Source: Hyphomicrobium sp.
GTDB taxonomy: Bacteria; Pseudomonadota; Alphaproteobacteria; Rhizobiales; Hyphomicrobiaceae
Assembly (NCBI GenBank): GCA_003987725.1
Contig: RXJH01000002.1
Location: forward strand, 100,461 to 164,460
Length of the DNA: 64,000 nt
Reading direction: 5' to 3'
Under the pieces are notes generated by a model, which worked only from the letters and a program-made list of their open reading frames with translations, did no database searches and had not been told where the DNA came from. A program made the translations under genes and the position numbers. Of this stretch, positions 5,080 to 64,000 are shown one piece after another; within the stretch, counting starts at the first letter, position 1, and every line of letters starts with the position of its first letter.

Positions 5080-5306
5080 ACATTTCCTCCGGAAATTCTA
5101 TTATGCGACGGGCGGGTCGGTGACCCGGGGATCGAGCGGGGGGACATTAGGCAGGTTTCATTATCAACGGAAAGACGGCAAAATGTGTCGCATTCGAAGT
5201 GATCGTTCGCAACGCTTGACCGGCTGGGTAACGTTGTTTTACCTGCGGCCGCGTGCTTTGGTCGAATCCCGCCGGTTGCGAGACCAGGGGCCATGAGGAG
5301 CAGGAT

Positions 5307-6593: not shown

Positions 6594-6613
6594 CCCCCAT
6601 ATCGAGATCGATA

Positions 6614-48591: not shown

Positions 48592-50313
48592 TCAGTCTGA
48601 CTTTTTCATCGCATCGCTGGCACTTCCACCCTTCCTCAAAAAGCGCGCCTGCCCTTTTTCAGGAGACAGCTCGGCGCCCAACTGCTTCAGCGCGTCGGAC
48701 GTGTCGAACCTATCGAGCATAATTTCAATCAAGACTGGTCCGTCATTTGTCGCCTGAGCGTGCGCGAGTGCATCCTCGAGCTCGTCTTCGGTGGTCACGC
48801 GCCGCCCCCAGCCTCCGCCGAACACCTCCGGGAGCTTGTGATAGGCCCACGGTTGAATGTCGTTATAAGGCCCCTCGTGGATGACCCGTTCTGTTGTGTA
48901 GCCATCGTTATTCAGGAGAAGCACGATGGCATTGCTTTTTCTTCGACAAAGCGACGAGAGTTCCTGGGCCGTCATCTGAAAAGCGCCGTCGCCGATGAAC
49001 GTCACCGGCCGTCGCGACGGATCTGCGAGCGCCGCGCCGAGCGTCGCAGGTAGCGCATAGCCGATCGAGAGGTAAAAGGCCTGGCCGATAAAGCCGACAT
49101 CGTGGTGCATCACGAGATCCGCAGCGAGGAAAATCGAGTCACCGGTTTCCGCGATGACCGTCGTGCCCTCTCCGATGAAGGCGTTAATCCGCTTTGCGAC
49201 CCGGCTCACCGTGAGGGTGCGGCCGGTCTCAACGGTGAAGCCGGTGTCCAATAGGCGCGAAACGCTCGTGAAGGGAGGATGAGATAGACCGCCCGGCGGC
49301 ATGCGGTCAGCCAACCCCGCGACCACATCCCCGATCCATACCTGTTCGTAGACATGCTGGCTGATCTTCAAGCGCCCGGAGTTCGCGAGGATCATGTGAC
49401 GGCCCTCGAGCCGACCGGTGTACACACCGAAGTTGATATCGCTGATCCAGGCCCCAAGGCACAGCAGGACATCACTATTCTCAACAATATCGCAAATCGT
49501 CGGACGCGAGGTTCCGCCTTCATAGACACCGATCGCCTGCGGATGAAGTTCGGAAATGACTGTCTTTCCCAGAAGCGTCGTCGCAACCGGCAGCGCGCTC
49601 GCCTCAACAAGCCGGCGGAATTCTTGCATCAAGCCGTAACGATGCAGTTCGACACCACCCAGAATAACCGGCCGGCTCGCCGTTGAGAGAAGCGCCATCA
49701 CCTCATCGAGCGCCTCCCCCAGCGCATCAGGATCGGACGGCGGCCGCGCAGGGGCGGCGAAGGTCTCTGGCGCTTGGCACGACCGATCCACCATATCGAC
49801 AGGGATCTCAATCATGATCGGCCGCTTTTCCGCGATGCAGAGGGCAAGCGCGCGATCTATGCGCTGTGGCGCATCGACGGCATCGTCCAGCAACACAGAG
49901 GCCACCGTGATGTGGGAATAGGCATGCTGCATCGTTGCGACATCTCCCACGCCGTGATGCAACAGCATCGGCGAACGCCGTTGCATTGTGCGCGGCCCGC
50001 CGACCAGGACGACCAGCGGCACTTGCTCCGCGTAGGCGCCCGCCACAGCATTCATGGCACTGAAGCCACCCACGCCCCAAGTGAGACAGATACAGCCGAT
50101 GCCGTTGATGCGAGCATAGGCGTCAGCCGCATAGCCAGCGTTGAGTTCATTACAGGTGCCGACGAATTCGATACCGCCCTCGATGAGACGGTCCATGAAC
50201 GTCAACACATAATCGCCTGGCACGCCGAATGCGTGCTTGAGACCGATCTGCTTCAGACGGTCAATGAGATATGTGGCGACCGTCGCTTGCATCGTATTCG
50301 TAGTTAGAAGCAT
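48592..50313 (-). CDS. TPP-dependent alpha-keto acid decarboxylase (pyruvate/indolepyruvate type)
   Basis: A 573-residue enzyme of the PDC/IPDC/KDC family that decarboxylates a 2-keto acid to an aldehyde. Seen: FGVPGDYVLTFMDRLIEGG, the activating Glu in TCNELNAGYAADAYAR (about residue 48), the paired His in LLHHGVGD (about 115), and the TPP/Mg motif IGDGAFQMTAQELSSLCRRK ending NNDGYTTE. Pyruvate, indolepyruvate or phenylpyruvate cannot be told apart. It stands alone; an Ehrlich-type or indole-acetate role is possible. ATG at 50313 with AGG upstream is chosen, with MQATVATYL at 50292 an alternative. Confidence 0.9.
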   Translation of the reverse strand: MLLTTNTMQATVATYLIDRLKQIGLKHAFGVPGDYVLTFMDRLIEGGIEFVGTCNELNAGYAADAYARINGIGCICLTWGVGGFSAMNAVAGAYAEQVPLVVLVGGPRTMQRRSPMLLHHGVGDVATMQHAYSHITVASVLLDDAVDAPQRIDRALALCIAEKRPIMIEIPVDMVDRSCQAPETFAAPARPPSDPDALGEALDEVMALLSTASRPVILGGVELHRYGLMQEFRRLVEASALPVATTLLGKTVISELHPQAIGVYEGGTSRPTICDIVENSDVLLCLGAWISDINFGVYTGRLEGRHMILANSGRLKISQHVYEQVWIGDVVAGLADRMPPGGLSHPPFTSVSRLLDTGFTVETGRTLTVSRVAKRINAFIGEGTTVIAETGDSIFLAADLVMHHDVGFIGQAFYLSIGYALPATLGAALADPSRRPVTFIGDGAFQMTAQELSSLCRRKSNAIVLLLNNDGYTTERVIHEGPYNDIQPWAYHKLPEVFGGGWGRRVTTEDELEDALAHAQATNDGPVLIEIMLDRFDTSDALKQLGAELSPEKGQARFLRKGGSASDAMKKSD

Positions 50314-50465
50314 CACACAACCTTGGAGCCAGTGAAATCAATTTTGGTCGATCGGCATTGTCAGACAGGATATGTTTCGAAAAACGCTAGCGCACGCTAA
50401 ATTACAAAGAGAACTCGAGCGCGGCAGTCCCGATTGTAGTCAGTTGGAGCGATGGGACTTCAATT

Positions 50466-51257
50466 ATGCAGGAAAGTAACGGCAGCTCGTCTCGAATCTC
50501 CGGTGTTCTCCTCGATCTAGGAGGCGTAATTTATGTGGGCAGTACTCCCATCAAAGGAGCACTTGCAGCGGTCGAGCGGCTTCGCCTTGCCGGTCTACCG
50601 CTCCGCTTCATCACAAACACGACCAGACGCTCAAAGCGTCGGGTGATGGACGATTTGTGCAAAATGGGCCTGCACGTCTCAAACGACGAGCTGTTGACTC
50701 CGGCTACTCTCGTGCGGGCATACTTGGAAAAGCATATGCTGTCGCCATTTCTCGTCGTTCATCGCGAATTGGAAGAGGACTTTGCTGATCTCCCTTCTGA
50801 CCGCACTGAGGCTGTCGTCGTCGGAGACGCGGGAGAATACTTCACCTACGACCGGCTCAATTGCGCTTACCGGAAGCTCACGGAAGGCGCACAACTTTTG
50901 GCGCTCGCAAAGAACCGAAACTTCAAGGACGCAGATGGCGAATTGAGCCTCGACGCCGGCCCCTTCGTTACCGCGCTCGAGTATGCGACCAACAGCAGGG
51001 CCACACTTTTTGGCAAACCGTCATCCGATTTTTTCGGCGCCGCCATCGAAGATCTCGGATATTCCGCGAGCAAGATCATCATGATAGGCGATGATGCAGA
51101 GGCCGATGTTGAAGGCGCGATCTCTGCAGGCTTGATGGGCATTCTCGTTCGAACCGGTAAGTATCGTCCTGGAGATGAATCCAAGTTGCCCTCTGCGCCT
51201 GACCTTGTCGCCGAAAATCTCGAGGAGGCGGCTCAATGGATTTTGGCTCACCGTTAA
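50466..51257 (+). CDS. HAD-superfamily hydrolase, HDHD2/LHPP type
   Basis: A 263-residue phosphatase-like protein. Motif I is [11 protein letters not shown]: the second Asp of DxD is replaced by Gly, as is usual in the HDHD2/LHPP branch (DLSGT, DISGV). Then [13 protein letters not shown] (motif II), [11 protein letters not shown] (Lys, motif III) and [20 protein letters not shown] (motif IV). Cap type II. The substrate is unknown. It ends overlapping by four bases the end of the convergent slipin gene. Confidence 0.88.
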
Positions 51258-52039
51258 CTTGAGGTCGGCGGCTCCTGCTCTCCTTCGCCCCAACGTTTGC
51301 CAAGATGACCGAGGAGGTCCATCGGCAACGGAAAGACGACGGTCGAGGAGCGCTCGCCAGCGACGTCGTGGAGCGCCGCAAAATAGCGCAGCTGCATTGC
51401 CTGCGGTTCCTGCGCCAGGATGCGGCCAGCCTCGACGAGCTTTTCTGCCGCCTGCTGCTCGCCCTCGGCGTTGATCACCTTGGCGCGGCGCAGACGCTCT
51501 GCCTCGGCCTGCTTGGCGATGGCGCGCACCATATTTTCGGCGAGGTCGATATCCTTGATCTCGATGTTTGCGACCTTAATGCCCCAGGCGTCGGTCTGCT
51601 GATCGAGGATCTCCTGGATGTCGGCGTTGAGCCGGTCACGTTCGGCCAGCATCTCGTCGAGCTCGTGCTTGCCGAGCACGGAGCGCAACGTCGTTTGCGC
51701 GAGCTGGCTCGTCGCGGCCATGAAATCCTCGACCTTGATAATCGCCCGTTCCGGATCGATGATCCGGAAGTAAAGCACGGCGTTGACTTTGACCGAGACG
51801 TTGTCGCGCGAGATCACGTCCTGCGGCGGCACGTTGTGAACCACGACCCGAAGGTCGACCTTCACCATCTGCTGCACGAAGGGAATGAGGATGATGAGGC
51901 CGGGGCCTTTGACCCCGGTGAAACGGCCGAGCGTGAAAATCACGCCACGCTGATATTCGCGCAGGATGCGGATCGCCGCGGAAAGGAAGATGACGGCAAT
52001 CACGGCGACAAGCAGGTAGGGCAGATAATCGAGCGTCAT
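51254..52039 (-). CDS. SPFH-domain protein, slipin/stomatin type
   Basis: A 261-residue membrane-anchored protein. It has an N-terminal helix ([18 protein letters not shown]), then [40 protein letters not shown] and [20 protein letters not shown], the classic slipin pattern. Slipins form oligomeric rings in the membrane together with a partner NfeD protease; that gene lies directly upstream and overlaps by four bases, a very common pair. Confidence 0.95.
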
Positions 52040-53451
52040 GGGGGCTCTCCTTCGGCGGTCGCCGTGTCCGACCGGCGCCGCACCATCAGGGTCAGGCCGC
52101 TGACGGTCGCCACCTCGACCGTCTCGCCGGGAGTGAAGGTTTCATCGCCGCGGGCCTGCCACCGCTCGCCATTGGCACGCACGTGGCCCTCCCCCGCCCG
52201 CCAGTCGAGGATCTTCGCCGGCAGGCCCTGCATCGCCTCGCCGCCGACGCGCGGCTGGCGGCGGCGCGCTCGCCAGAGCGCACGACCAACGAGGGCGACC
52301 AGAGCGAAGACCAGCATCGCGGCGACACCGACGACAGCCGGCGAGAGGCGGAAGCCGGGCGCCTCGACCTTGAACAGCATCGCCGTGCCGAGCAGGAAGG
52401 CGGCGAGACCGCCGAGCCCGAGGACGACGGTGGGATTGAAGGCCTCGACGATCAGGAAGGTGAGCCCCAGCAGCATCAACACGAGACCGGCATAGTCGAT
52501 CGGCAGCAGGTTGAGCGCATAGAGGCCGAGCAGCAGCGCAATGGTGCCGACGACGCCGGGTGCCACCGCACCCGGGCTCGTGAACTCGAAGATCAAGCCG
52601 TAGACGCCGACGAGCATCAATATGACGGCGACATTCGGATCGGTAATCACCGAGAGCAGACGGATGAGCCAACCCGGTTGCAGCGTCTCGATAGTGAGGC
52701 CGCGGGTTGCCAGATGCTCCGGGGCGCCACCGTTCACAGCGACGGTACGGCCGTCGATCTTCGCCAGCAGCTCGGTCGTGTCTCCGGCGATGAGATCGAT
52801 CGCGCCGGCCTTGAGCGCTGCGTTGGCCGAGAGGCTAGAAGCCTCACGCACGGCCTCCTCCGCCCAGTCGGCATTGCGGCCGCGCAGCTCTGCCAGGCTA
52901 CGGATAAAGGCGACGGCGTCATTGGTCATCTTCGCCGTCATGGCGTCTTGTGAGGGCGCCGGCGTCACGCCCTTGTCGCTGCCGCTCTGGTCTTTTTTGT
53001 CAGGCGGACCTGGAAGTCCCGGCATGGGGGCGCCGATCTCGACCGGCGTCGCCGCGCCGAGATTGGTTCCAGGCGCCATGGCCGCAACATGCGTCGCATA
53101 AAGGATGTAAGTGCCGGCACTCGCAGCATGCGCGCCAGACGGTGACACGAAGCCGACGACCGGAACCCGCGAGGCGAGTACGTCGGCGATAATCTCGCGC
53201 ATGCTGGTGACGAGGCCGCCGGGCGTATTGAGGCGCAGGATGACGATTTCAGCACGGCGTTCGTCTGCGGTCGCCAGCGCCTCCTTCACGTACCGGGCGG
53301 TGGCGGGACCGATCGCGCCGTCGATATCGATCTCAAGTGCAAGCTTAACGGAACCCACCTTGTCGGCCGCGAAGGGCGGCGAGAGGGTCGCCACGACAGC
53401 GGCGAAAGCAGCCGCAACAAAAAGGGGCGCGCGCACCAGTTTCACGCTCAT
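52036..53451 (-). CDS. NfeD family membrane-bound serine protease (ClpP class)
   Basis: A 471-residue protein. After the signal segment ([20 protein letters not shown]) comes a ClpP-like protease domain (about 30-225), with [20 protein letters not shown] and [20 protein letters not shown], holding the catalytic Ser in AASAG; the partner Lys is expected after it. Then four to five helices (about 300-400) and a C-terminal OB-fold NfeD domain. It cleaves hydrophobic C-terminal tails such as that of slipin. ATG at 53451 is chosen as it starts the signal peptide; the frame is open to 53505. Confidence 0.92.
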
Positions 53452-53602
53452 AGCTCCCTGCAAAGCCGATCGCGGCATGCGATAAGCCCACACGAAAGCA
53501 ATCAACGCCGCTGGGGATCAGCTTCCCAAGCAAGCGGCGGCTTCAGTCCGCAAACCTCCGCGCATATCACCGGCCCCGGCAGGGCAACGAACGGGCTAAA
53601 AG

Positions 53603-53824
53603 CTAGCTTGCCCCATGCGCCTGCCGCTCGGCGTCATCGGCAGCCCGACGAAAATCGTCGGCTTCCTTTTGCCAGGCTGCCTCATTGCCGACCAGGGACG
53701 GAGAGATGACGAGGACCGCGAAAAGTGACATATGCTCGAGCATTTCCAGCGACGGCACCTCGCGCTCAACACTCCGCGCGTCGGCCGTTTCGTAGATGAT
53801 GCTCTGCGGAAGAGTGGTCCCCAT
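53603..53824 (-). CDS. Small hypothetical protein
   Basis: A 73-residue acidic protein (SIIYETADARSVEREVPSLE, then EHMSLFAVLVISPSLVGNEA, and a helix DDFRRAADDAERQAHGAS). ATG at 53824 follows GGAGGG with good spacing. A competing frame (53596-53865) has no such site. Family unknown; it lies within a stretch of small stress-type genes. Confidence 0.45.
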   Translation of the reverse strand: MGTTLPQSIIYETADARSVEREVPSLEMLEHMSLFAVLVISPSLVGNEAAWQKEADDFRRAADDAERQAHGAS

Positions 53825-53946
53825 CGGAACACCCTCCAAGCGGTACCGGCACCAAACGCCGGCATTTCAAGAAAAACATGGGCAACTGCGGCCGGAGTTT
53901 CAATGCCCCGGTCGTTGGCTGCCGAAGATATTCAGACCGTAAAGAA

Positions 53947-54162
53947 TTACGCGGCTGCCGCCATCAGGCGATCGACTGTCGCTGCGAAATGACCGCACCA
54001 ATCTTTCGTCTCCACCACCGGCCACACTCCGTGATCATTGGAGGCCGATTGAGCCATAGGCGCATTATAGCGGCACAGGCCGGTGTCTTTTTCCTTATGC
54101 TTCGTGGCGGTCTTGCTTTGATTATCGAAAAATTGGCAATTGCCGCAGGCACAGGTGGTCAT
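53947..54162 (-). CDS. Small Cys-rich protein, possible iron-sulfur or zinc site
   Basis: A 71-residue protein. CACGNCQFFDNQSK at the start and later GLCRYNAP and DWCGHF give the pattern C-x-C-x2-C ... C-R ... W-C-x-F, known from small proteins and phage-encoded ones in Rhizobiales. Four cysteines suggest a metal centre. ATG at 54162 begins the conserved segment; the longer frame to 54291 reads as non-coding. Confidence 0.7.
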   Translation of the reverse strand: MTTCACGNCQFFDNQSKTATKHKEKDTGLCRYNAPMAQSASNDHGVWPVVETKDWCGHFAATVDRLMAAAA

Positions 54163-54209
54163 TGGATGCCTCCTCGTCCTAGTGCCCATGGCCCAAACCG
54201 GACCTCCTG

Positions 54210-54461
54210 TCAGGGTCCACTCATCGCCAGCGCACTTTTCGCTTCGCTCCGGACGGCTTCCAGAGCCAAAATCGCCTCGTCGACAAAACAATCAATCTCG
54301 GCTGCCGTTCCCATATGCGGAGAAATGGGCAGATCAGCCACCCGGCTCATGGCGCTGGATTTCACATAGATTTGGACGAAAGCCGCTACCGGACGGGCGT
54401 CATCATCGCCCGCTGAAAAGTGAAATCCAAACCGGCCTTTTGTTTCTTCGATTTGCATCTC
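54210..54461 (-). CDS. Small conserved hypothetical protein
   Basis: An 83-residue protein. IEETKGRFGFHFSAGDDDAR is followed by AAFVQIYVKSSAMSRVADLP and a C-terminal helix (VDEAILALEAVRSEAKSALA). ATG at 54461 follows GGGAGACC. It is soluble and resembles small unknown Rhizobiales proteins found with CBS-domain and stress genes. Function unknown. Confidence 0.65.
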   Translation of the reverse strand, partial: EMQIEETKGRFGFHFSAGDDDARPVAAFVQIYVKSSAMSRVADLPISPHMGTAAEIDCFVDEAILALEAVRSEAKSALAMSGP

Positions 54462-54517
54462 GGGTCTCCCAAACGCTTCAGCCGAACCGGCCGGTATGCC
54501 TTCAGCTCGATTTCGGT

Positions 54518-54952
54518 TCAGCGGTCGCCTTTGATGTAATGTTCGAGCTGTTCGATAATGAACTTTTGATCTGCAATCACGCTTTTGACCAAATCGCCGA
54601 TCGAAACCAATCCGATAACCGTCGTGTGCTCGAGGACAGGGAGATGGCGAACGGCTTTCGCGGTCATGATAGCCATGCACTCCTCCACGGTCTGATCCAA
54701 TCGGGTGCAGATGACGGTAGTCGACATGATCTCCCGCACCAGCGTCCGAGGAGATGTCCGTCCCTTCAACACGATCTTTCGAGCGTAGTCTCGTTCGGTG
54801 ATGATCCCGGTGAGATTTCCACCGTCGATGACGACGAGCGCCCCAATCTGATGCTCCGCCATCATCTCGAGGGCAGCCAGCACGGAGGCATCCGGATGAA
54901 TATCATAGACACCGCGCCCTTTCTGATCGAGCACATCTCGAACGGTTGCCAT
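54518..54952 (-). CDS. Two-CBS-domain protein
   Basis: A 144-residue protein made of two CBS motifs (VRDVLDQKGRGVYDIHPDAS with LTGIITERDYARKIV, and VREIMSTTVICTRLDQTVEE with VIGLVSIGDLVKSVI). Such stand-alone pairs bind AMP, ATP, NADH or SAM and sense energy state; in Rhizobiales they occur with universal-stress and anaerobic genes as here. ATG at 54952 follows GAGAGGTG. Confidence 0.93.
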   Translation of the reverse strand: MATVRDVLDQKGRGVYDIHPDASVLAALEMMAEHQIGALVVIDGGNLTGIITERDYARKIVLKGRTSPRTLVREIMSTTVICTRLDQTVEECMAIMTAKAVRHLPVLEHTTVIGLVSIGDLVKSVIADQKFIIEQLEHYIKGDR

Positions 54953-55024
54953 CTCGCGGCACCTCTCGACATCTTCACGGCAACCGTCAACGGGTACTCA
55001 AAAAGCTGCAGCCGTTACGGCAGC

Positions 55025-55747
55025 TCATATGCCCGAACCAGTGACTGCCAGAACTTGCCCTGTCACTCCGGCAGATGCGTCGCTCGCCAGAAACGCAACG
55101 GCTTGAGCGACATCACCGCGTTTCGCCCAATGCTTAAGGTCTTTGGGCTTCATGGCGGCGATGTTGGATTCCGTATCCACGAGTCCAGGCGCCACTGCGT
55201 TGAACCGGATGCCCACGTCGCGACCTTCGAGCGCGAGCGTTCTCGTGAGCGCCTCGATGCCCGCTTTGGCGCAATTGTAGGCGACCATATTGGCCTGAGG
55301 CAGCCCGGCACGGGCGAAGTTGATGATGGTTCCGCCCCCGCTATCCCGCATGCGAAAAAAGGCGGCGCGCGAGCACAGGAATGACGACAAAAGATTGTTG
55401 TTCAGTTCGTGCTGCCAGTCGTCCAACGAGTGCTCCACAGCCGGCTTGTAACGCGTGAGCCCGCCTGCCAAGTTCACGAGGATATCGATGCGACCGTATT
55501 CCCGAATCATCTGACCGATCGCCTCGTTCACTTCTTGCTCGTTGGTGAGATCGGCGGCCAGCGCCAGGACGCGAGCACCACGTGAGCGTAGCTCGGCAGC
55601 CCGAGCCTCAACATTAGCTCGATTGCGAGCTGAGATTGCGAGACTCGCGCCAAGGTCAGCCAGCGCTTGAGCTACCGCTAGCCCGATCTGTCCGTTTCCG
55701 CTAACCCCGGTGACAAGAGCAAATTTGCCCTCCAACCCGGTTGCCAT
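55025..55747 (-). CDS. Short-chain dehydrogenase/reductase with altered catalytic Ser
   Basis: A 240-residue SDR. Cofactor motif VTGVSGNGQIGLAVAQ (TGxxxGxG), NAG-type site as VNLAGG, then IINFARAGLPQANMVAYNCAKAG: the Tyr and Lys (YNCAK) are present, but the Ser normally 13 residues before Tyr is Phe. Either a neighbouring residue serves or activity is altered. The C-terminus VTGQVLAVTGSGI is the usual family end. ATG at 55747 has AAGGAG at correct spacing; 55753 would be too close. Substrate unknown. Confidence 0.88.
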   Translation of the reverse strand: MATGLEGKFALVTGVSGNGQIGLAVAQALADLGASLAISARNRANVEARAAELRSRGARVLALAADLTNEQEVNEAIGQMIREYGRIDILVNLAGGLTRYKPAVEHSLDDWQHELNNNLLSSFLCSRAAFFRMRDSGGGTIINFARAGLPQANMVAYNCAKAGIEALTRTLALEGRDVGIRFNAVAPGLVDTESNIAAMKPKDLKHWAKRGDVAQAVAFLASDASAGVTGQVLAVTGSGI

Positions 55748-55796
55748 AGCCATCTCCTTTGCCCCTTTGCTTCTTGCTCGGCCAGCAGATTAGCGG

Positions 55797-56627
55797 TCAG
55801 TCCGCATGCGGAACGAATGCAACATGGGCGACCTTGCTCTCGACCGTTGTCACACCCTCAACGCCTTGCAGCAAACGCACGGCATCGACGATCATCTGCT
55901 GATCTGTCGTCGCTCCCGTAAGCAGCACCTTGCCGCTCAAAACATGCACATCAATGCAATTTTGAATGGACTTCGCGCCGAACCGGCGATCCATGGCAGC
56001 CCGCGCACGAAACAGGATGACCTGGTCCATGAGCACGTTGCGGGATCGCGCGGTTTCCTGAAATGTAGAACTCTCTGCCAAGCGAACGATATGTTCGACG
56101 CAGTCTTGGACTGGGACCCGTGCGGTATTGAGCACGATCGCATAGAGCGACGGATCCCCCCAGTCGATGCCAAAAAGTCTTTGCATCGTTCCGTTATGAG
56201 CGGCGTCGCTGCGCTCGATTTCCCGACGTGCGTTTGCGGCGATGCCAACGCCGAGCCGCTCCATCAGAACTCTTTCGCGAAAGAGCATCGGAGCGCAGAT
56301 ACGCACACAAATGACGTGCGGTATGGACCTCAAGAGATAGCTGGCACCCCAGCCTCTGATCAGCACGTTTCCCTTGACCGCCAGCTCCAAAATCTCTTGA
56401 GCCGTATACCGGGACATTCGCTTGCGATCGAGCGTCCACCGCTCCAGCATCGACGTCTCGCCTTCGAGAAATCGATGCACCTCGCTTTCCGGCATGCCGG
56501 CTCGTGCAGCAATGTCGTGCTCGACAATCTCATGGTGAACGATCGCAAGGCCCAATCGAGTTGCGAGCCCTCTCGCCACTTCGCTTCCGCGCGTCGCCAT
56601 CTCGCGCGTCATCGCGATGACAGCCAT
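55797..56627 (-). CDS. Cytidylate-kinase-like domain fused to BON domain
   Basis: A 276-residue protein. Residues 1-190 are the cytidylate-kinase-like family (VIAMTREMATRGSEVARGLA at the start, then HHEIVEHDIAARAGMPESEV, GNVLIRGWGASYLLRSIPHV and VRICAPMLFRERVLMERLGV). Residues about 205-270 are a BON domain (FGAKSIQNCIDVHVLSGKVL with LLQGVEGVTTVESKVAHV). The Walker-like loop is replaced by TREMATRGSE, as usual for this subfamily. BON domains bind membranes or lipids, so the fusion may be a membrane-linked kinase-like sensor. ATG at 56627 follows AAAGGAGGA. Confidence 0.85.
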   Translation of the reverse strand: MAVIAMTREMATRGSEVARGLATRLGLAIVHHEIVEHDIAARAGMPESEVHRFLEGETSMLERWTLDRKRMSRYTAQEILELAVKGNVLIRGWGASYLLRSIPHVICVRICAPMLFRERVLMERLGVGIAANARREIERSDAAHNGTMQRLFGIDWGDPSLYAIVLNTARVPVQDCVEHIVRLAESSTFQETARSRNVLMDQVILFRARAAMDRRFGAKSIQNCIDVHVLSGKVLLTGATTDQQMIVDAVRLLQGVEGVTTVESKVAHVAFVPHAD

Positions 56628-56982
56628 TGTATCCTCCTTTGCGGCATCGCGTGCCGGAGGATGCGCCTGTAAGCCCGACGGCCTGCCAAGCAGCATTACG
56701 GGTACTTAGAACTCGCGCTCGCCGCCCAATGGATCCTTTCGCAAAAATTTTAAGCCGTTGTTTCCACCGTCGCAACATCGACGGAGTGCCTTGGCAAGGT
56801 GGGTTTCACTCCCGGCCCTGCACATCGCAAGCGTATTGCATTGCGGTAAAGCGGGCGAGATCGATCAAATTTTTCGATTTCGGCTGCCCCGTCCTTGAAC
56901 GCGTTAGACGGTCAATTACTTCAGATACACAGATGCGAAGTCCCCTAATGGGACTTGCGATGTCAACCACAGGAGGTTGGCA

Positions 56983-57348
56983 ATGGATGCAAGGCAAAAC
57001 ATCACAAGCGACTGGCAGGACTCGGCCAACGTCTTGCTCGGAATTGCACTGTTCATCTCACCTTGGGCGCTAAACTATGTAGCGGAGACCAACGCTGCAC
57101 TGAATGCACACATCGTCGGGGCGGTCATCACGTTGCTGGCTCTAGCGGCGCTGTTCGCCTTCCGCGTCTGGGAGGAATGGATTAATGCCGTGTTGGGCGC
57201 TTGGCTGATCGTAGCACCATGGGTGCTAAGCTTCAGCGGCCATGCGGTGGCGACGCGTACGAGCATAGCGATCGGAATCGCCGCGATCGTGCTAGCGCTT
57301 TGGTCGGTGAACGAGCACACCTCAGGGCACATGAGTGCCGGAGGTTAA
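56983..57348 (+). CDS. SPW-repeat membrane protein
   Basis: A 121-residue protein with four helices and two copies of the SPW motif (GIALFISPWALNY and GAWLIVAPWVLSF), the SPW-repeat family of unknown function. WQDSANVLLG and WEEWINAVLG precede the copies. ATG at 56983 has AGGAGG upstream. Divergent from the kinase-BON gene. It ends a block of stress-type genes. Confidence 0.92.
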   Translation: MDARQNITSDWQDSANVLLGIALFISPWALNYVAETNAALNAHIVGAVITLLALAALFAFRVWEEWINAVLGAWLIVAPWVLSFSGHAVATRTSIAIGIAAIVLALWSVNEHTSGHMSAGG

Positions 57349-57766
57349 GCAGGCGGCCTACAGGCACGCCACTGATGGTCGGAATCGCGCGGTCCCTGAC
57401 CGGGCGCGTGGGATCTTCGGCGACGCGGATAGGTTTGATCGTGGATTGGAGCGACAGTGATTAACTCACCGGTTGCACCGTCGATTTTGGTCCAACCAAC
57501 TTGAGGAAGCGGCGAAAAGCATCAACGCACGCAAATTGTCGCCGGATACTTGTCACTGTGCCAGTCAAGACGGCCTTCGTGTCCGCCGCAACGAAAGGCA
57601 AGAGTAGCAGAACCGCAACGCGATGCAGCGAAATCCAACGGCTTGTGAATGTTGTGAACAATTCCGGGCCGTCGCCTCGCTTTTCGCGCAAAACAGCCCC
57701 AGATGGAACCGGCCGTCGCTGATTCAGCAACTTCGACTGGTCTGTTAAATTCGGGGAAGATTCTGA
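57349..57766 (+). other. Region upstream of the PqqD operon, with a candidate 41-residue Cys-bearing ORF
   Basis: About 420 bases. A plus-strand ORF 57623-57748 reads MQRNPTACECCEQFRAVASL and ends LIQQLRLVC, with a CECC cluster, 18 bases before the pqqD-like start. It lacks a good ribosome site, so it is only a candidate peptide gene. A second, Arg/Lys-rich frame (57501-57722, TTG start) overlaps it and is less likely. Confidence 0.3.
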
Positions 57767-58222
57767 ATGTTAGACGCTGCCGCCGATATTGGCATCTTAG
57801 AGGTCTCAACTCCCGACTGCGTCGCGAACGATTTTGACGGCGAGATCGTGGCGCTGAATTTGTCGAGCGGTGTCTACTGGAGTCTGCGCGATCTCGCGGC
57901 TGCGCTGTGGCGGGATGTTACGTCAGGACATAACCCAGAAGCGATCATCGACCGCCTAGCTCAGATGAATTCAAACCTCGCCCATGAGAGTCATCTCGTC
58001 ATTGCGAATCTCGTGAACGCCGGCCTGTTGCGTCGGTGCAGTGGGAGCCCTGTTGCGCTCGAGGCGAGCGAAACGGTGGCACGTGCAGAGGCGGGCGAAG
58101 TTGCCTTTTCGGTCGAGTCTTATGAGGACATGAAGGACTTGATCCTGGCAGACCCGGTGCATGATACTGAGGAGCACCTCGGCTGGCCCGTCATACGCAA
58201 TGACAATGGCGTCGGCGCATGA
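57767..58222 (+). CDS. PqqD-family peptide-binding protein (RRE domain)
   Basis: A 151-residue protein. The first 90 residues match PqqD/RRE: VANDFDGEIVALNLSSGVYW, then SLRDLAAALWRDVTSGHNPEAII and LVNAGLLRR. PqqD-like domains bind leader peptides of ribosomal peptides and present them to modifying enzymes. The 55-residue acidic C-terminus (YEDMKDLILADPVHDTEEHLGWP) is an added segment, as in PqqD relatives of the HPr-rel-A systems. It has GGGGAAG upstream of the ATG and overlaps the next gene by four bases. Confidence 0.85.
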   Translation: MLDAAADIGILEVSTPDCVANDFDGEIVALNLSSGVYWSLRDLAAALWRDVTSGHNPEAIIDRLAQMNSNLAHESHLVIANLVNAGLLRRCSGSPVALEASETVARAEAGEVAFSVESYEDMKDLILADPVHDTEEHLGWPVIRNDNGVGA

Positions 58223-59313
58223 TTGCGTGCGCTCTGTCCGGTGTTGCGCAATCTGAGGCAAACCGGCCGCGCGCAGACGAACTTTTAGAGGCGCTTGACC
58301 TATTTACAGCGCGACACGCGAAACGGGCCCATCAGGTCCGGGTGCGGGTCGCAGATCTGTCCATCCGTCTCTACATGCCATCGGCCGCCATGGCCGATCT
58401 CTATGCAGGTCGGCTCGGTGGCGCGGTCAAAACAAATGCCGGGGCCGATGATCTGCACTTCCACCTCGCCGAGCCATCGGCGGTCGGTAACCCAGATGCC
58501 GCAAATTTTGCTTACTACCAATCCCTCGGACCTGATTTCGAGCGACTTGCCGGAGAGTCGGGCCTCATCGGCATCGTCGGCCGACCAGACCCGTATAACA
58601 ATCCAACCGAGCCATGCACGCTTTTCAATCCGCGTACAGGCGTCGGCGTGCAGTGGGTGACCTCGCTGGCTGACCTGCCACCGTGGGATGCTGGCTCACC
58701 TTTCCGTCTGCTCATCCACTGGGCAACCGCGCAGCGCGGATTGCGCATGATGCACGCCGGCTCTCTCGTCTCAGGGCGCAGGTCCATGCTGCTCGTCGGT
58801 GGAGGCGGCAGCGGCAAGTCGGGTACGACACTCGCGGGCGTCGCGTCGGGTCTTCAGACGTTGGGCGACGACTATGTCGTGGTCACGGCCGACCCTGTAC
58901 CTCGTGTCCATCGGGTCCATCAGTTGCTGAAACAGGACCCGGCCGGCATCAAACGCGTCCTTGGGCCACGCGAGTTGGAGACGCCCTTAGTGCTGAATTG
59001 GCAGGGCAAGGTCGAAATCGATCCCGAGTTACATTTCAGGGGATGCATGGCCGAGAGTGCGGACGTCGTAGCGCTCGTTCTTCCCAGGATCGCTCGTGCA
59101 GATCAGACGACTTTCGAACCTCTTCGAGCTCAGGATTTATTCCATCATGCCGCCGCATCCATGTGGCAGCAGCTTCCGGGTGCGCAGAAATCCGGCTTCA
59201 TGTTTGCCACGGCGCTAACGCGGCGCGTTCCGACGTGGCGCATGAACCTTTCCTCGGATCCGTTTGAGATCGGCAGAGCGGTACGTCGGTTTCTCGATAG
59301 CGGTGTGCCATGA
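58219..59313 (+). CDS. HprK-related kinase
   Basis: A 364-residue protein. A HprK-type P-loop LLVGGGGSGKSGTTLAGVAS (about 191-210) is followed by TLGDDYVVVTAD (the metal/catalytic DD) and LVLPRIARADQTTFEPL. The N-terminal half is a distinct domain (about 1-185, including LFNPRTGVGVQWVTSLADLPPWDAGSP). Such proteins, called HprK-related kinases, accompany PqqD-like proteins in peptide-modification gene sets and phosphorylate peptide side chains in some lasso clusters. It sits between the PqqD gene and the glycosyltransferases, overlapping both by four bases. Confidence 0.87.
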   Translation: MIACALSGVAQSEANRPRADELLEALDLFTARHAKRAHQVRVRVADLSIRLYMPSAAMADLYAGRLGGAVKTNAGADDLHFHLAEPSAVGNPDAANFAYYQSLGPDFERLAGESGLIGIVGRPDPYNNPTEPCTLFNPRTGVGVQWVTSLADLPPWDAGSPFRLLIHWATAQRGLRMMHAGSLVSGRRSMLLVGGGGSGKSGTTLAGVASGLQTLGDDYVVVTADPVPRVHRVHQLLKQDPAGIKRVLGPRELETPLVLNWQGKVEIDPELHFRGCMAESADVVALVLPRIARADQTTFEPLRAQDLFHHAAASMWQQLPGAQKSGFMFATALTRRVPTWRMNLSSDPFEIGRAVRRFLDSGVP

Positions 59314-60110
59314 CCGCCGCTCCCATAGTCAGCGTCATCATACCGGTTTTCAACGGTGAGCGGCACCTTGGCGAAGCGCTGGCTTCGCTGAAGGAAGAGC
59401 CCGACCTTCAGCTCGACATCGTCATTGTCGATGACGGATCGACGGATCGTTCGCTGGATATCATCTCTGAAATCAGTCGCCGCGATCGGCGCCTGCGCAT
59501 CATGAGCGGGCCACATCGAGGCGTCGCCGCCGCGCGCAATATTGGCGTCCAAGCAGCGCAGGGCGAGTTTGTAACTTTTCTCGATTGCGATGATGTCTGC
59601 CCGCGCGGGCGTATTGCGCGCCAGCTCGGAAAGCTTCTCGCCAGCCCTGAGGTGGCGTATGTCGTCGGGCAGACCCTACTTTTCGAGCAGCTCGACGATG
59701 CGCAGCGTCCGTACCCCGGTTCGCGGAGCGCCAGCATGTTGCTGCCCACGTTGCACAGTGCGCTCTTTCGAAGAGGAGTGTTCAGTCAATTCGGTTTGTT
59801 CGACGAAGAACTCACCTTCTCTGAAGACCTGGATTTTTTCTTCCGTCTCGCCGAGCACGATGAGCCTATTCTGGTCGAGGCTGAGATTGCCTCGCTCTAC
59901 CGCCGGCACGACGCCAACATGACACGCAACGGTCGCGCCATTCGCGCTTCCACTCTCCAGGTTCTCAATAAGTCGATTGCGCGCCGAAGGGCGATTGGAC
60001 GGCGCAAGCCGCTGGACCTGTTCTTCGTGCAACACCAAGAGGTAGAGGCTTTGTTTGATAGGCCCGCGAGCAACGACGCGTGTGACCGCTCAAAGGCAGG
60101 GGCGCAATGA
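59310..60110 (+). CDS. Family 2 glycosyltransferase, first of three
   Basis: A 266-residue GT-A glycosyltransferase. VSVIIPVFNGERHLGEALAS and IVDDGSTDRS bind the nucleotide sugar; FLDCDDV is the DxD metal site; a later FSEDLDFFFRLAEHDEP holds the ED base. No membrane segment, so a cytoplasmic enzyme acting on a soluble or membrane-near acceptor. Its ATG overlaps the kinase stop and its end overlaps the second transferase. All three resemble each other, so local duplication is likely. Confidence 0.9.
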   Translation: MTAAPIVSVIIPVFNGERHLGEALASLKEEPDLQLDIVIVDDGSTDRSLDIISEISRRDRRLRIMSGPHRGVAAARNIGVQAAQGEFVTFLDCDDVCPRGRIARQLGKLLASPEVAYVVGQTLLFEQLDDAQRPYPGSRSASMLLPTLHSALFRRGVFSQFGLFDEELTFSEDLDFFFRLAEHDEPILVEAEIASLYRRHDANMTRNGRAIRASTLQVLNKSIARRRAIGRRKPLDLFFVQHQEVEALFDRPASNDACDRSKAGAQ

Positions 60111-60856
60111 CCGTTCAAGCGCTCCCTCGGATCTCGGTCATCATGACGACGTATAACGGGGCAGAATTCGTAGACCAATCTATAGGGTCGCTTACGGCCG
60201 AGCCCGGCGTCGATCTGGATATCGTCGTCGTCGACGACGCCTCGACTGATGGAACGCTTGCACGCCTGCGCGATCTTGAGGCGCACGATCCTCGTATTCG
60301 CGTTTTCGCCGGGGAGAAGCGCGGCATCGCCGGATCGCGCAATGCTGGGCTGGCCAAAGTCAGGTACGAGCTTCTTACGTTTCTTGATCAAGACGATCTT
60401 TGCATGCCGGGCCGCCTCGCGCGTCAAGCCGCGCTGATCCAGAGAACGCCCGATGCAGCGGCCGTCATGGGCGAAACACTCATGTTTCAGACCCTCGGCC
60501 CGGACCGGATGCCTTTGCCGGGCACCAACACAGCGCGCATCCTCGGTATACAGCTGTCAGCCGGCTTATTCCGGACCAGCGCTGTCCGGTCACTTGGGTT
60601 CGACAGCACATTCGCTATGGCAGACGATTTTGATCTGATCCTGCGCCTGCTTGAGACGGATCATGAGATCGCGGTCGAACGCGAAGTTGCGACGTTGCAC
60701 CGGCGTCACGTCGGAAACACGTCGGGAAATATCTCGGCCCTGCGGCTCGAACTGCTCAAGGTGTTCCAGGCATCATTGAAGCGTCGCCGCGCTGCGGGAC
60801 AAGTCGGACCGATCATGCATCCGCTGGTGGCAGCGATGTCTCGGGCTGGAAACTAG
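60107..60856 (+). CDS. Family 2 glycosyltransferase, second of three
   Basis: A 249-residue GT2. Seen: ISVIMTTYNGAEFVDQSIGS, VVDDASTDGTL, FLDQDDLCMPGRLARQAALI and FAMADDFDLILRLLETDHEI. It is close in length and layout to the one upstream, with the same C-terminal RRRAAGQ-type tail. It overlaps its upstream neighbour by four bases and is followed by the third GT2 after four bases. Confidence 0.9.
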   Translation: MTVQALPRISVIMTTYNGAEFVDQSIGSLTAEPGVDLDIVVVDDASTDGTLARLRDLEAHDPRIRVFAGEKRGIAGSRNAGLAKVRYELLTFLDQDDLCMPGRLARQAALIQRTPDAAAVMGETLMFQTLGPDRMPLPGTNTARILGIQLSAGLFRTSAVRSLGFDSTFAMADDFDLILRLLETDHEIAVEREVATLHRRHVGNTSGNISALRLELLKVFQASLKRRRAAGQVGPIMHPLVAAMSRAGN

Positions 60857-60860
60857 GTCC

Positions 60861-61541
60861 ATGTCGGATTCTGCTTATGCAGTCGTCATCCCCGCATATA
60901 ACGCAGCGCGCACGTTGGATGAAGCAATCCGGTCGGTGCTTGCACAGACGGTTGCCGCCAGCGACATCCTCGTGATTGACGACGGCTCGACAGACGATAC
61001 GGGCGATATTGCCGCGAGATACGGCGGCACGGTTCGCGTTATCAGGCAAGGCAATGCAGGGGCGGCTGCCGCGACGACCGTGGGGTTGACGAACGTATCG
61101 GCGCCGTTCGTTGCGGGTTTGGACGCCGATGACATTTGGCTGCCTGAGAAAGCCGAGCGGCAATTGGAGCGATTGGCACGTGCACCACACGTCGACGGTC
61201 TGTTCTGTCGCGTTCGCCGTTTTCAGCATGGCGGCAATGATCGATCGAGCGGCGTGGTTTCCGATGGCCTGTCGCGTTCCGCAATGATGTTGCGCGCGTC
61301 TGCCGTTGCAGCGATCGGCCCCGTCAACGATCCGGGGGGTGCGCGCGGCCGCGGTGAGATGATCGATTGGCTGCAAAGAGGCCGCGAACTCGGATTGATT
61401 TTCGAAACGCTGCCGGAGGTGTTAGGGCTCCGTCGAATCCTTCCTGGGAGCTTGAGTTACGGCCATGACGCGATGGCAGATCGTGGTTATCTCGACGTTG
61501 TCCGTGCCTCGCTCGAGCGGAGGAGAGCGAGATCAACATGA
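60861..61541 (+). CDS. Family 2 glycosyltransferase, third of three
   Basis: A 226-residue GT2, the shortest of the set. Seen: YAVVIPAYNAARTLDEAIRS, VIDDGSTDDTGDIAARYGGT and GLDADDIWLPEKAERQLERL. It has the RGEMIDWLQRGRELGL segment where the acid/base residue of the family lies. It ends with a 4-base overlap onto the nucleotidyltransferase gene, making pqqD-hprK-GT-GT-GT-NTP one transcript. Confidence 0.9.
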   Translation: MSDSAYAVVIPAYNAARTLDEAIRSVLAQTVAASDILVIDDGSTDDTGDIAARYGGTVRVIRQGNAGAAAATTVGLTNVSAPFVAGLDADDIWLPEKAERQLERLARAPHVDGLFCRVRRFQHGGNDRSSGVVSDGLSRSAMMLRASAVAAIGPVNDPGGARGRGEMIDWLQRGRELGLIFETLPEVLGLRRILPGSLSYGHDAMADRGYLDVVRASLERRRARST

Positions 61542-62992
61542 GAGTCCCCGTATTGAAGGGGGCGCGACCGGCCCCTGAGATAGATCTTCTGCTTCAAGCT
61601 TGCCTCGCTCCGCCGGACGCAGCGCGTGCGGCTTGGCACCTCTGGCTGGCGAGCCGCGAACTCGACGATGCGAGTTGGCATGAAATGCGTATTCTTGCAC
61701 CTCTTTCAGGTCGCCTGCGGACTCTCGATCCGAACTCGACCTATCGGCCTCGCATCGAGGGATTAGCCAAATCCCATTGGACCCAAACCCAGATCATGCT
61801 GGGTGAGACACTGCCGGCCATCAAAGCCCTACGCAAGGCCGGGATCGAATGCATGCTCATCAAGGGCGCCGCCGGATACGCAGAAGGCTTCGGGCCAACG
61901 GTTCGTCGTTTGATGGGCGATGTCGACATACTCGTTCGACAAGAGGATGGGCCGCGTGCCGCCAGCGTTTTGACAGCAGCGGGTTGGGAGGCAACGAACG
62001 GCGATTCGGCCCTCCTGCTGCAGCAGCTCGCGCCGCTCCGCGCGTCATCAAATTATCGTCGGGGCATTTACGGCGAAGTCGACTTGCATACGCAGGCGTT
62101 TCACTTCTGTCGTCGCGACCAGGAACTCGAAAACGCACTATGGCGTGATGCGAGAGTAATCTCGTTCGGCGGCACTGACGTTTGCGTACCCTCTTCTGCG
62201 GACAGCATCGTCATCAGTCTCGCACATGGCGTGGTCGGACGCGATGGAGATTGGGCAATCGACATCGGTCAGCGTATCAACGCCGGCGGCGTCGAATGGG
62301 ACCGCACGATCGAGCTTGTCGAGCGTCGAGCCTTGGTTCCATTGGCGCTCGCTGGTCTCAACTATCTGCACGAGCTTGGCCTCGGTGTGCCGCAGGATGT
62401 GATGCGCAGACTTGCCGAAACGCCGGTCGCGCCCGGCGTCTGGTTGAAGCATTACGCAAGCATCCGCTCGAACAGACGAAAGCGCCGATTGCTGCAAAGA
62501 ATTGCTGACGTACTATCATCGCCGCTCCTGCCGCGTACCATCTATCATCGGTCGGCTAAATCCGACAATTTGATCGGGGTCGCACGCGACAATCGCGGCG
62601 TTTGGTACCCGCGCCGCTGGAGGCGCATACCGCTGGCTGAGGGTCATACGGCAGCGTCGGCGGGTCACTGCATCGAAATTGATTCTGACGCGGATATAAG
62701 GGTGTGCGGAGTATCTCTGCGTTTTCCGACTAGCCCCCAGTCGAGGAGAGTGTTCATCGAGGTCGCGTCCGGCGAGAGGGTCATACATCGCCTGCGAGGC
62801 CGTTTGCGCTCCCGTGCCGGAAAGTATCAAACCATGCGCTTTGAAATTCCGCTCGATGATCTAGCCCCCGGTCGGCGTATCATAACACTTGAGGCGCGCC
62901 CTTCTGGCTATGTGTCGTCCGCGGCACCGCGTTCTGAGGCGGTGGCAAAGGCAGCGCCTGCTTTCCAAATAACGGATGCCTGGGCCGCTTGA
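61538..62992 (+). CDS. NTP_transf_5 family nucleotidyltransferase with C-terminal beta domain
   Basis: A 484-residue protein. Residues about 60-345 match the uncharacterised nucleotidyltransferase family (NTP_transf_5): HWTQTQIMLGETLPAIKALR, IKGAAGYAEGFGPTVRRLMG with GDVDILV (the G-D-x-D metal site) and YGEVDLHTQAFHF. The last 130 residues look like a beta-sandwich (HCIEIDSDADIRVCGVSLRF; RRVFIEVASGERVIHRLRGR) not seen in most family members. Members occur with PqqD and HprK-like genes in peptide-modification gene sets. It is the last gene of the operon. Confidence 0.85.
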   Translation: MRVPVLKGARPAPEIDLLLQACLAPPDAARAAWHLWLASRELDDASWHEMRILAPLSGRLRTLDPNSTYRPRIEGLAKSHWTQTQIMLGETLPAIKALRKAGIECMLIKGAAGYAEGFGPTVRRLMGDVDILVRQEDGPRAASVLTAAGWEATNGDSALLLQQLAPLRASSNYRRGIYGEVDLHTQAFHFCRRDQELENALWRDARVISFGGTDVCVPSSADSIVISLAHGVVGRDGDWAIDIGQRINAGGVEWDRTIELVERRALVPLALAGLNYLHELGLGVPQDVMRRLAETPVAPGVWLKHYASIRSNRRKRRLLQRIADVLSSPLLPRTIYHRSAKSDNLIGVARDNRGVWYPRRWRRIPLAEGHTAASAGHCIEIDSDADIRVCGVSLRFPTSPQSRRVFIEVASGERVIHRLRGRLRSRAGKYQTMRFEIPLDDLAPGRRIITLEARPSGYVSSAAPRSEAVAKAAPAFQITDAWAA

Positions 62993-63034
62993 CTTCCGCT
63001 TTCTCCTCGGCCCCGCGCGACAAATCTCGTTGAT

Positions 63035-63247
63035 TTCTTTTTTCAATATCTACAGGCGATCATCGTCACGGCAGCGACACTTCTCTATGCGACCGGCGTT
63101 TACCGCATTCGCTGCCGCGTGGGCCACGAACGCGTGGTGACTCGCTCGCAAACGCTCGCTTTCACCGTGGCCGCCATTTTGTTTGTCGTCACTCTGTCGC
63201 AACCGGTCGACGACATCGCGGACGCATCGTTTTCAGCTCACCCGTAG
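63035..63247 (+). pseudogene. Fragment of a CtaG-like (caa3 oxidase assembly) membrane protein
   Basis: An open stretch of 70 codons, just after an in-frame TGA and lacking a start codon. It reads ATLLYATGVYRIRCRVG, then SQTLAFTVAAILFVVTLSQP and ends DDIADASFSAHP stop. This matches the first two helices and the LFSAHM boundary of the CtaG family, then is cut. No ribosome site exists and the remaining 180 or so residues are absent. It is a decayed N-terminal piece lying between the NTP_transf_5 gene and hupE. Confidence 0.65.
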
Positions 63248-63320
63248 CCTTGATATCGGCTTCACGGCCAAGTTTTATGATCGAGCATTGCCCGTGCTTC
63301 AGAGGCTTCAAAGAGAGTGA

Positions 63321-63925
63321 AATGACATCACGACAAAGGTTCGCGCTGCTCGCTGCGCTGGTTGCCGCTCATGCCCCTCGCGCCGGCGTTTGCGCACACG
63401 GGAACGGGCACGTCCGCTGGTCTCCTGTCTGGCTTCATGCATCCGATCACGGGTGTTGATCATCTCGTCGCCATGGTGGCAGTCGGTCTATGGGGACAAC
63501 TCGGCAATCCCGCGATCTGGATACTGCCGATTGCGTTTCCGCTCGTGATGGCGATTGGCGGCCTCTTCGGCGTCTCGGGATTTGATTTGCCCTTCACTGA
63601 AATCATGATTGCGATTTCAGGAATCGCGCTCGGGCTAGCGGTCGCGATGAATATCCGCCCTCCGCTTTGGGCCGCCGCCCTCCTTGTAGGCGTCTTCGCG
63701 GTTTTCCACGGCTACGCGCATGGACGCGAGCTGCCTGAAGCCGCCGATCCCCTCGCCTTCGGTGTGGGCTTCGTCATCGCTACTGTCCTCTTGCATCTCT
63801 GCGGTATCTTGATCGGCGTACTGACCCGTTGGCCGGTCGGCGCACAGCTCGTTCGAGCCAGCGGCGCCGCAATCGGTGCAATCGGAGGATACTTCCTCTT
63901 GAGCGCAATGGGATTGGTCACTTGA
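63321..63925 (+). pseudogene. HupE/UreJ family protein, frameshifted in the signal peptide
   Basis: The mature protein (MHPITGVDHLVAMVAVGLWG; YAHGRELPEAADPLAFGVGF) is a clear six-helix HupE/UreJ-type metal permease. ATG at 63321 after GAGAGTG begins a proper signal peptide, TSRQRFALLAALVAAHAP. It then runs out of frame near 63368-63375, where the alternative frame reads LMPLAPAFAHTGTG, the expected cleavage region. One base gained or lost explains it. Otherwise translation would start at TTG 63362 or ATG 63371 with a truncated signal. If the shift is an error, the gene is intact; nickel or cobalt uptake is the family role. Confidence 0.65.
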
Positions 63926-64000
63926 AAAAGGAAACGCTGATCCGCGCCATTGCTGCGGCGCTCGCACTCGTAAGCGTACCCGCGAGCGCCGATGCTCATC
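63922..64000 (+). CDS. Start of a secreted protein (partial at window edge)
   Basis: A TTG at 63922, overlapping the hupE stop, opens KKETLIRAIAAALALVSVPA and SADAH, a typical Sec signal peptide. AGGA/GAAAAAGG is inside rather than upstream, so the start is provisional. Coupling to hupE suggests a related periplasmic or metal function. The rest lies past the window. Confidence 0.55.
   Translation, partial: MKKETLIRAIAAALALVSVPASADAH

Follow-up and report, generated by a model that had tools for sequence, protein, structure and literature searches.

The 64,000-nucleotide stretch of Hyphomicrobium sp. DNA analyzed here (GenBank assembly GCA_003987725.1, contig RXJH01000002.1, positions 100,461 to 164,460 of the forward strand; hereafter the window) carries a six-gene operon whose products belong to a gene set that is conserved well beyond this genome: a PqqD-like protein with a RiPP (ribosomally synthesized and post-translationally modified peptide) recognition element (RRE), an HPr-kinase (HprK)-like kinase, an NTP_transf_5 enzyme and GT2 glycosyltransferases. 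We give an about even chance to the reading that this cassette is a self-contained accessory unit for the RRE-guided phospho-glycosylation of a peptide or protein that is encoded at an unlinked site. The features of the operon are the following.

57767-62992, plus strand: six-gene operon, from the list of open reading frames (ORFs); four of the five junctions are 4-base overlaps and one is a 4-base gap.
57767..58222, plus strand: tailed RRE (PqqD-like) protein of 151 amino acids, from ORF, Pfam, motif and profile match.
57806..58039, plus strand: predicted RRE domain, about residues 14-91, a winged-helix peptide-binding fold, from homology to TbiB1, PbaB1, TfuB1 and LppB and from its cleft residues.
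58118..58192, plus strand: C-terminal tail motif, residues 118-142, from an alignment of 37 tailed sequences and dN/dS (the ratio of nonsynonymous to synonymous substitution rates).
58219..59313, plus strand: HPr-kinase-like P-loop kinase of 364 amino acids with H179, K200, D217 and D218 conserved, from profile and alignment.
59310..60110, plus strand: GT2 glycosyltransferase a, 266 amino acids, from ORF and Pfam.
60107..60856, plus strand: GT2 glycosyltransferase b, 249 amino acids, a paralogue of a, from ORF, Pfam and pairwise comparison.
60861..61541, plus strand: GT2 glycosyltransferase c, 226 amino acids, from ORF, Pfam and pairwise comparison.
61538..62992, plus strand: NTP_transf_5 enzyme with a nucleotidyltransferase fold, 484 amino acids, with D128, D130 and D182 conserved, from Pfam and alignment.
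57464..57766, plus strand: upstream region co-conserved with the operon, a possible promoter or regulatory region, from blastn blocks that start at 57464-57596 in four other genomes and from a three-way alignment.

The six-gene operon is real. The spacing listed above agrees with the initial annotation of this DNA, which had described six genes on one strand separated by 4-base overlaps or gaps. Furthermore, all six genes gave dN/dS values of 0.14-0.27 in comparisons with their counterparts at loci L003 and L004 of other Hyphomicrobium genomes, which indicates purifying selection. Because selection acts on all six genes, and because the gene set recurs elsewhere, the arrangement is not a product of chance.

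The recurrence was followed across 39 loci, namely those of the window, L003, L004, L034 on a plasmid of the cyanobacterium Crinalium, 34 other places where the kinase was found in the order-wide search, and L111 (genome G497), which lies outside the class. Most of them belong to Hyphomicrobiales and most were taken as stretches of 20 kb (for L111, 12 of 15.9 kb were read). Within these stretches a PqqD-like gene was present at 38 loci, a GT2 gene at all 39 and an NTP_transf_5 gene at 33 (a figure that includes L053 and a weak match in L048, with L050 as one more by Pfam), and 32 of the 39 contained all four families. No NTP_transf_5 gene was found in the stretches of L036, L043, L098, L099 and L111. 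When only genes in a run with the kinase were counted, that is, contiguous with it on either strand with gaps of at most 400 bp, the corresponding numbers were 32 for PqqD, 34 for GT2, 23 for NTP_transf_5 and 22 for all four. These run counts are the safer ones, because GT2 genes are common and there was no control with random stretches. The order seen in the window (PqqD, kinase, at least one GT2 of type a, GT2 c, NTP_transf_5) was recognized by eye at 14 of the 39 loci. A codon-usage gene caller, which missed real genes including the last one of the window operon, served solely for choosing ORFs and did not enter the counts. Since no stretch lacked a GT2 gene and 34 loci have one contiguous with the kinase, we regard these genes as regular members of the cassette; the view of the initial annotation that adjacent glycosyltransferases are unusual is not supported. 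Its remark that lasso cyclase, leader protease and radical-SAM genes are missing does hold for the six-gene block of the window.

The cassette is inherited in a unit-like manner. The kinases closest to that of the window are those of H. facile DSM 1565 (88% identity) and of a Hyphomicrobium metagenome-assembled genome (86%). Comparison by blastn of window positions 50000-64000 with the stretches of four other loci yielded, in each case, a single block of DNA: 57538-62996 for L003 (91%), 57464-63033 for L004 (88%), 57596-63015 for L119 (90%) and 57464-63041 for L120 (90%). Two additional loci are duplicates, L122 of the L003 record and L123 of the L004 record, and have identical block edges, so that five genomes are represented, including that of the window. 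Beyond the block, nothing else in the window matches the stretches of L003, L004, L119 and L120. The sharpness of these edges in five Hyphomicrobium genomes therefore shows that the operon, together with 170-300 bp of upstream DNA, behaves as a single accessory unit. In contrast, L003/L122 and L004/L123 have 1.2-1.5 kb of DNA in common elsewhere in their flanks, though not at the same distance from the cassette, and between L119 and L120 another 147 bp of upstream DNA is shared (81%).

Within the genus, the RRE gene is present in six of 22 genomes, being that of the window, four with 89-93% identity and one with 33%; within the order, the kinase was detected in 29 of 397 genomes (E ≤ 1e-6), at 35 places. 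The cassette thus appears to behave as portable, a term we base on the block edges and this patchy distribution. On plasmids, a match to the kinase was found only on that of Crinalium, and searches with the RRE gave two partial matches besides, in Tistrella and Paenibacillus, both ending short of the tail. No confirmed relative was found on viral contigs. Within its own genome, the window kinase gave no further good match (next E = 0.056). Finally, mirror-tree correlations between the four families, calculated with four near-copies omitted, were 0.51-0.75, against a maximum of 0.41 after shuffling. These values would fit a common history of the four families, and species ancestry alone could also yield them.

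The first gene of the operon had been described as encoding a PqqD-like protein with an acidic tail. The first half of this description is correct: the protein scores 23.1 bits against the Pfam PqqD model, just below the cut-off of 23.4, and the profile of its family matches the solved RREs TbiB1 (E = 5.6e-15), PbaB1 (4e-11), TfuB1 (2.4e-8) and LppB (2.9e-6). According to PMC13381572, PDB entry 9x90 holds PbaB1 in complex with PbaA, and entry 9x8z LppB in complex with LppA. The leader-contacting residues given in that source were placed on our family by hand via a HMMER alignment, with Ala and Cys included in the hydrophobic set. Positions 38, 40, 47, 64, 78, 82 and 87, among them those of pocket 2 and the divider, are hydrophobic in 33-36 of 36 RREs, against a mean hydrophobic fraction of 0.49 over the whole RRE. 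The RRE of the window family probably binds a peptide, though not a classical YxxP leader.

As for the second half of the description, the "acidic tail" is really a conserved sequence motif. It consists of about 23 C-terminal residues, set off from the RRE domain by a linker of variable sequence, with the consensus [YFH]xD[ML]xDLxLxDP[IV]H[ED]VDxxxGWP. All 37 aligned tailed sequences have D129, P130, H132, W140 and P141 in common, whereas G35 is the sole invariant residue of the RRE domain itself. The signature D-P-[IV]-H...G-W-P is present at 37 of the 39 loci; the exceptions are L110, where no PqqD-like protein was found, and L053, where the motif is degenerate (DPIHG without GWP). Relative to L003 and L004 there is not one nonsynonymous difference in the 25 codons of the tail. 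A profile built from the tail only was run against 22 cassette genomes or records, and gave 27 matches with E < 1e-8, each beside a cassette-type kinase; 21 of these are sequences from which the profile had been built and six are new. The degenerate copy of G154 (locus L053) followed at E = 0.011, and the ten remaining matches had E > 0.1. Hence, no second kind of protein carries the tail at E < 0.01 in these 22 genomes or records, and a separate precursor bearing the motif was rejected as a candidate, only PqqD-like proteins being matched above noise. When the whole-protein profile was taken across the phylum (30 loci of 44 places), the motif was seen in the six loci whose match extends into the tail and not in the other 24. 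The tail has no counterpart in solved structures at E ≤ 10. It was also considered as a phospho-acceptor, an unlikely role that was rejected, since it has no conserved Ser, Thr or Tyr: the 23-residue stretch contains none of these in seven of 37 sequences, and in 19 of 37 no Ser, Thr, Tyr or Cys comes after it. Most likely, the tail is a docking motif that brings an RRE-bound substrate to at least one of the cassette enzymes, although it might instead fold back onto the RRE. Its five invariant residues offer a mutable handle on this question, as well as a precise handle for finding more members of the family.

The kinase of the window has no Pfam match above cut-off. Its assignment as an HprK-like P-loop kinase by the initial annotation is upheld by the family profile, which matches a solved HPr kinase/phosphorylase (1jb1, E = 1.8e-7). 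Moreover, key catalytic residues are not lost among the homologues: the Walker A motif and H179, K200, D217 and D218 (H-K-D-D) are kept in all 37 aligned kinases, an alignment that omits two of the 39 loci, L052 (where the open frame ends early) and L110. According to PMC9266682, H-K-D-D is the catalytic set of lasso-peptide kinases.

The last gene matches NTP_transf_5 (PF14907) with 86.5 bits, well over the cut-off of 31.2, in accordance with its first description. Of the 27 proteins aligned, 25 retain the D-D-D-H positions, and the D.D...D residues among these positions are presumably metal ligands. The C-terminal extension of the window protein, about residues 340-484, can be aligned in only part of the family, and no relatives were found in the PDB by sequence. 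The three glycosyltransferases were initially called related members of GT2. All three are GT2 proteins indeed, with Pfam scores of 107.1, 98.5 and 96 bits, but close kinship applies to the first two only: a and b match each other with an E-value of about 1e-53, and c is distant (about 3e-15).

How might these proteins work together? The scheme of phosphorylation, capping and glycan extension that we propose is based on analogy with the chemistry of LppK and PsmK/PsmN, which are the same enzyme pairs. As described in PMC13381572, the precursor of linear polyphosphorylated peptides (LPP) receives phosphate on a Ser from LppK, several times over. For pseudomycoidin, the reviews PMC9266682 and PMC8498205 state that PsmK phosphorylates the C-terminal Ser, and that the addition of one or two hexoses to this phosphate requires PsmN. 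By analogy, a substrate peptide would first be held in the cleft of the RRE, after which the HprK-like kinase would phosphorylate a substrate hydroxyl (Ser), possibly more than once. The NTP_transf_5 enzyme would then cap the phosphate with a sugar, or with a nucleotidyl or sugar phosphate, as has been reported for PsmN in pseudomycoidin, and the GT2 enzymes would lengthen the glycan. The product would finally be exported, by a linked MsbA-like exporter in some genomes and by an unlinked one in the strain studied here.

Several observations weigh against RRE-guided phospho-glycosylation of an unlinked peptide or protein. Firstly, no recurrent precursor emerged from 3011 ORFs of 20-200 amino acids within 3 kb of the cassettes: among the families listed, largest first, none occurs at more than four loci, although a highly variable precursor would escape such a comparison. 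A conserved small ORF near the orthologous loci, which the initial annotation had proposed looking for, was thus not found. This includes an LPP-type linked precursor as far as small-ORF families go, the leader pattern YxxPxVLxHQxIxFETxxS itself not having been searched. A peptide substrate, if there is one, must have its gene elsewhere or be the tailed RRE protein itself. Secondly, the six-gene block of the window contains neither a leader peptidase nor an MsbA-like exporter. Thirdly, the leader-binding features of the RRE are incomplete: pocket-1 position 43 is hydrophobic in just 18 of the 36 RREs, the kink position 41 (Asn/Gly) is variable, and position 74, which bonds the leader Tyr, is Asp or Glu in just 12. 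Fourthly, the NTP_transf_5 protein of L107 and the L034 copy that adjoins the RRE have lost the catalytic D-D-D-H residues. Finally, PMC13381572 reports that the NTP transferase of LPP had no detectable activity in a heterologous host, a missing partner being suspected.

The genes in and around the other cassettes bear on the nature of the product. An ABC (ATP-binding cassette) exporter adjoins five of the 39 loci: L034 by annotation, L048, L101 and L102 by Pfam, and L103 by local similarity. Methyltransferases are found in L107 and L034, a GT8 protein in L044 and, some 6 kb away from the L111 kinase, a sulfotransferase-GT2 protein. These extra genes, together with the radical-SAM protein of L101 described below, suggest a product that may be tailored and exported. 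At L102:9425-13012 and L103:9326-12895, a frame of about 1190 codons combines an ABC exporter with a GT2 domain, either as a fusion or as two genes in frame. L101:6939-9188 encodes, within the cassette, a 749-residue protein with FkbM methyltransferase, SPASM and radical-SAM domains. Proteases of other kinds occur near single cassettes: a Transglut_core protein near that of L039 and a trypsin-like/PDZ protease, possibly a processing enzyme, at L103:7259-8182, directly 5' of the tailed RRE gene and in the same orientation. L034 has a second nucleotidyltransferase gene close by. L098 and L099 (G182:C115 and G359:C1) are divergent second copies of the tailed RRE and kinase, and may constitute a separate subtype. 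No signal peptidase gene is present in the six-gene block of the window; the other loci were not searched with a profile for it. In the sample of flanking proteins that was annotated, most belonged to unrelated kinds of protein, while several ORFs matched no family; there was no flippase or polymerase among them, although no Wzx/Wzy profile search was made.

One may ask whether the substrate is a peptide at all. The enzymes might make a phosphorylated glycan or glycolipid, with the tailed RRE protein merely as a scaffold or regulator. Many cassettes have several GT2 genes, the GT8 and sulfotransferase-GT2 proteins just mentioned would suit such a product, and no precursor peptide was found. 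On the other hand, the peptide cleft of the RRE is partly retained, and the flanking proteins that were annotated include neither a flippase nor a polymerase, although no search by profile was made. We regard a non-peptide substrate as unlikely.

Similarly improbable, in our estimation, is a precursor-free system in which the RRE tail is a fused recognition peptide and the tailed RRE acts as a built-in leader or carrier, either bringing kinase, GT2 and NTP_transf_5 proteins to targets encoded elsewhere or being itself the platform for a phosphoglycan. If true, this would represent an RRE logic unlike the leader-peptide logic of known RiPPs. A narrower version, in which the tailed RRE itself is the scaffold, with its own tail as built-in leader or carrier and the glycan assembled on or around the protein, we consider somewhat less probable still. 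In its favour, no separate precursor was found, the tail is conserved more strongly than any other part of the protein, and the start of the tail, about [YFH]x[DN][MLI]xx[LIM], loosely resembles, by eye, the YxxPx[LVI] leader in PMC13381572. However, the tail offers no conserved hydroxyl acceptor, and the residues after the motif are variable and usually few.

It is doubtful, and clearly more so, that the cassette is a detached tailoring module for a lasso peptide or LPP, with the precursor, protease and exporter encoded at other sites of that genome. In favour of this are the homology of its RRE, kinase and NTP_transf_5 proteins, the Transglut_core protein near L039 and the protease upstream of the L103 RRE. 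In addition, the divergent second copies in G182 and G359, which belong to one genus, have an asparagine synthase gene (PF00733) at 2.8 and 3.7 kb from their tail motifs. Yet no other cassette has an asparagine synthase nearby in the 32 genomes or records searched, G160 being excluded, and the lasso protease PF13471 matches (E ≤ 1e-3) in only nine of the 32, never beside the cassette, and has no match in the genome of the window. That the operon is a piece of an ordinary exopolysaccharide locus, where GT2 enzymes are typical and within which (as capsule loci) LPP clusters are reported in PMC13381572, is highly improbable, because the block ends at six genes in five Hyphomicrobium genomes and the annotated flanking genes are of many unrelated kinds.

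An anti-phage defence system was also considered and rejected, the sole match to the PADLOC models being a weak one of the kinase to PDC-M54A (E = 0.0022, over 41 residues). Upstream of the operon, a direct repeat, TTGTGAA-(2)-TTGTGAA, is located at about 57643-57658, some 110 bp 5' of the first gene, and is kept in the three aligned Hyphomicrobium sequences; it is a possible regulator site. A consensus scan found no sigma-70-like site in the region 5' of the operon. The ORF at 57501-57722 falls within the conserved DNA, but we do not take it as a gene, because the L004 sequence is interrupted there by a 7-base gap and the corresponding ORF is far shorter. Elsewhere in the window, ORFs judged by eye include formylmethanofuran dehydrogenase/formyltransferase-like genes at 5253-9992, which fit a methylotroph, and CusA/CusB-like heavy-metal efflux genes at 35817-40435.

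Regarding known systems, the initial annotation had placed the operon with the HPr-rel-A-type sets, which, with HPr-rel-B, comprise kinases of TIGR04352 and TIGR04355 and PqqD proteins of TIGR04353. The likeness is one of distant homology only. TIGR04352 (HprK_rel_A) is matched by 35 of 36 kinases, at best with E = 4.2e-11, TIGR04355 (HprK_rel_B) by 34 of 36, and TIGR04353 by four of 36 RREs. The placement nevertheless fails at the curated cut-offs: the window kinase scores 27.1 bits against 200 for TIGR04352, and TIGR04353 has no match to the window PqqD-like protein at E ≤ 1 and none in the genome of the window (G000). Furthermore, the HPr-rel-A-type PqqD proteins of L095 and L096 lack the tail. 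The SynChlorMet cassette shares a pair of HprK-like (ScmC) and PqqD-like (ScmD) proteins, and some relatives match these weakly (ScmC eight of 36 kinases, ScmD seven of 36 members). It differs in its radical-SAM gene, which is not in the window block, and the window proteins have no match to its models at E ≤ 1.

The nearest relatives of the cassette are LPP biosynthesis and the tailoring of paeninodin and pseudomycoidin. A similar mixture of HPr kinase, nucleotidyltransferase and GT2 genes is reported for Butyrivibrio lasso clusters in PMC7533575. In the open-access literature, outside which most subscription papers lie, we found no description of such a lasso-free gene set or of the tail among the papers listed. 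The pseudomycoidin/paeninodin enzymes (PsmK-PsmN, PadeK, ThcoK; PMC9266682, PMC8498205) also include an H-K-D-D HprK-like kinase, a B1-type RRE and a partner annotated as a nucleotidyltransferase; in contrast to them, the window block has three GT2 genes and lacks a lasso cyclase, B2 protease and precursor. LPP of Paenibacillus and other Bacillota (PMC13381572) likewise has a discrete RRE, an HprK-like kinase and an NTP transferase, requires no macrolactam cyclase, and its loci are rich in glycosyltransferases, as is the setting of our cassettes, five of which have the ABC exporter. Unlike LPP, no linked precursor was found for the cassette and no signal peptidase was seen in the window block, and the cassette has GT2 enzymes as regular members, an RRE with a conserved C-terminal tail, and a mainly Hyphomicrobiales distribution. 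Pathways for peptide natural products repeatedly contain HprK-like kinases and enzymes of the NTP_transf_5 type, both of which are little understood, and a minimal cassette with its own GT2 enzymes and a motif-bearing RRE provides a compact test system for their chemistry.

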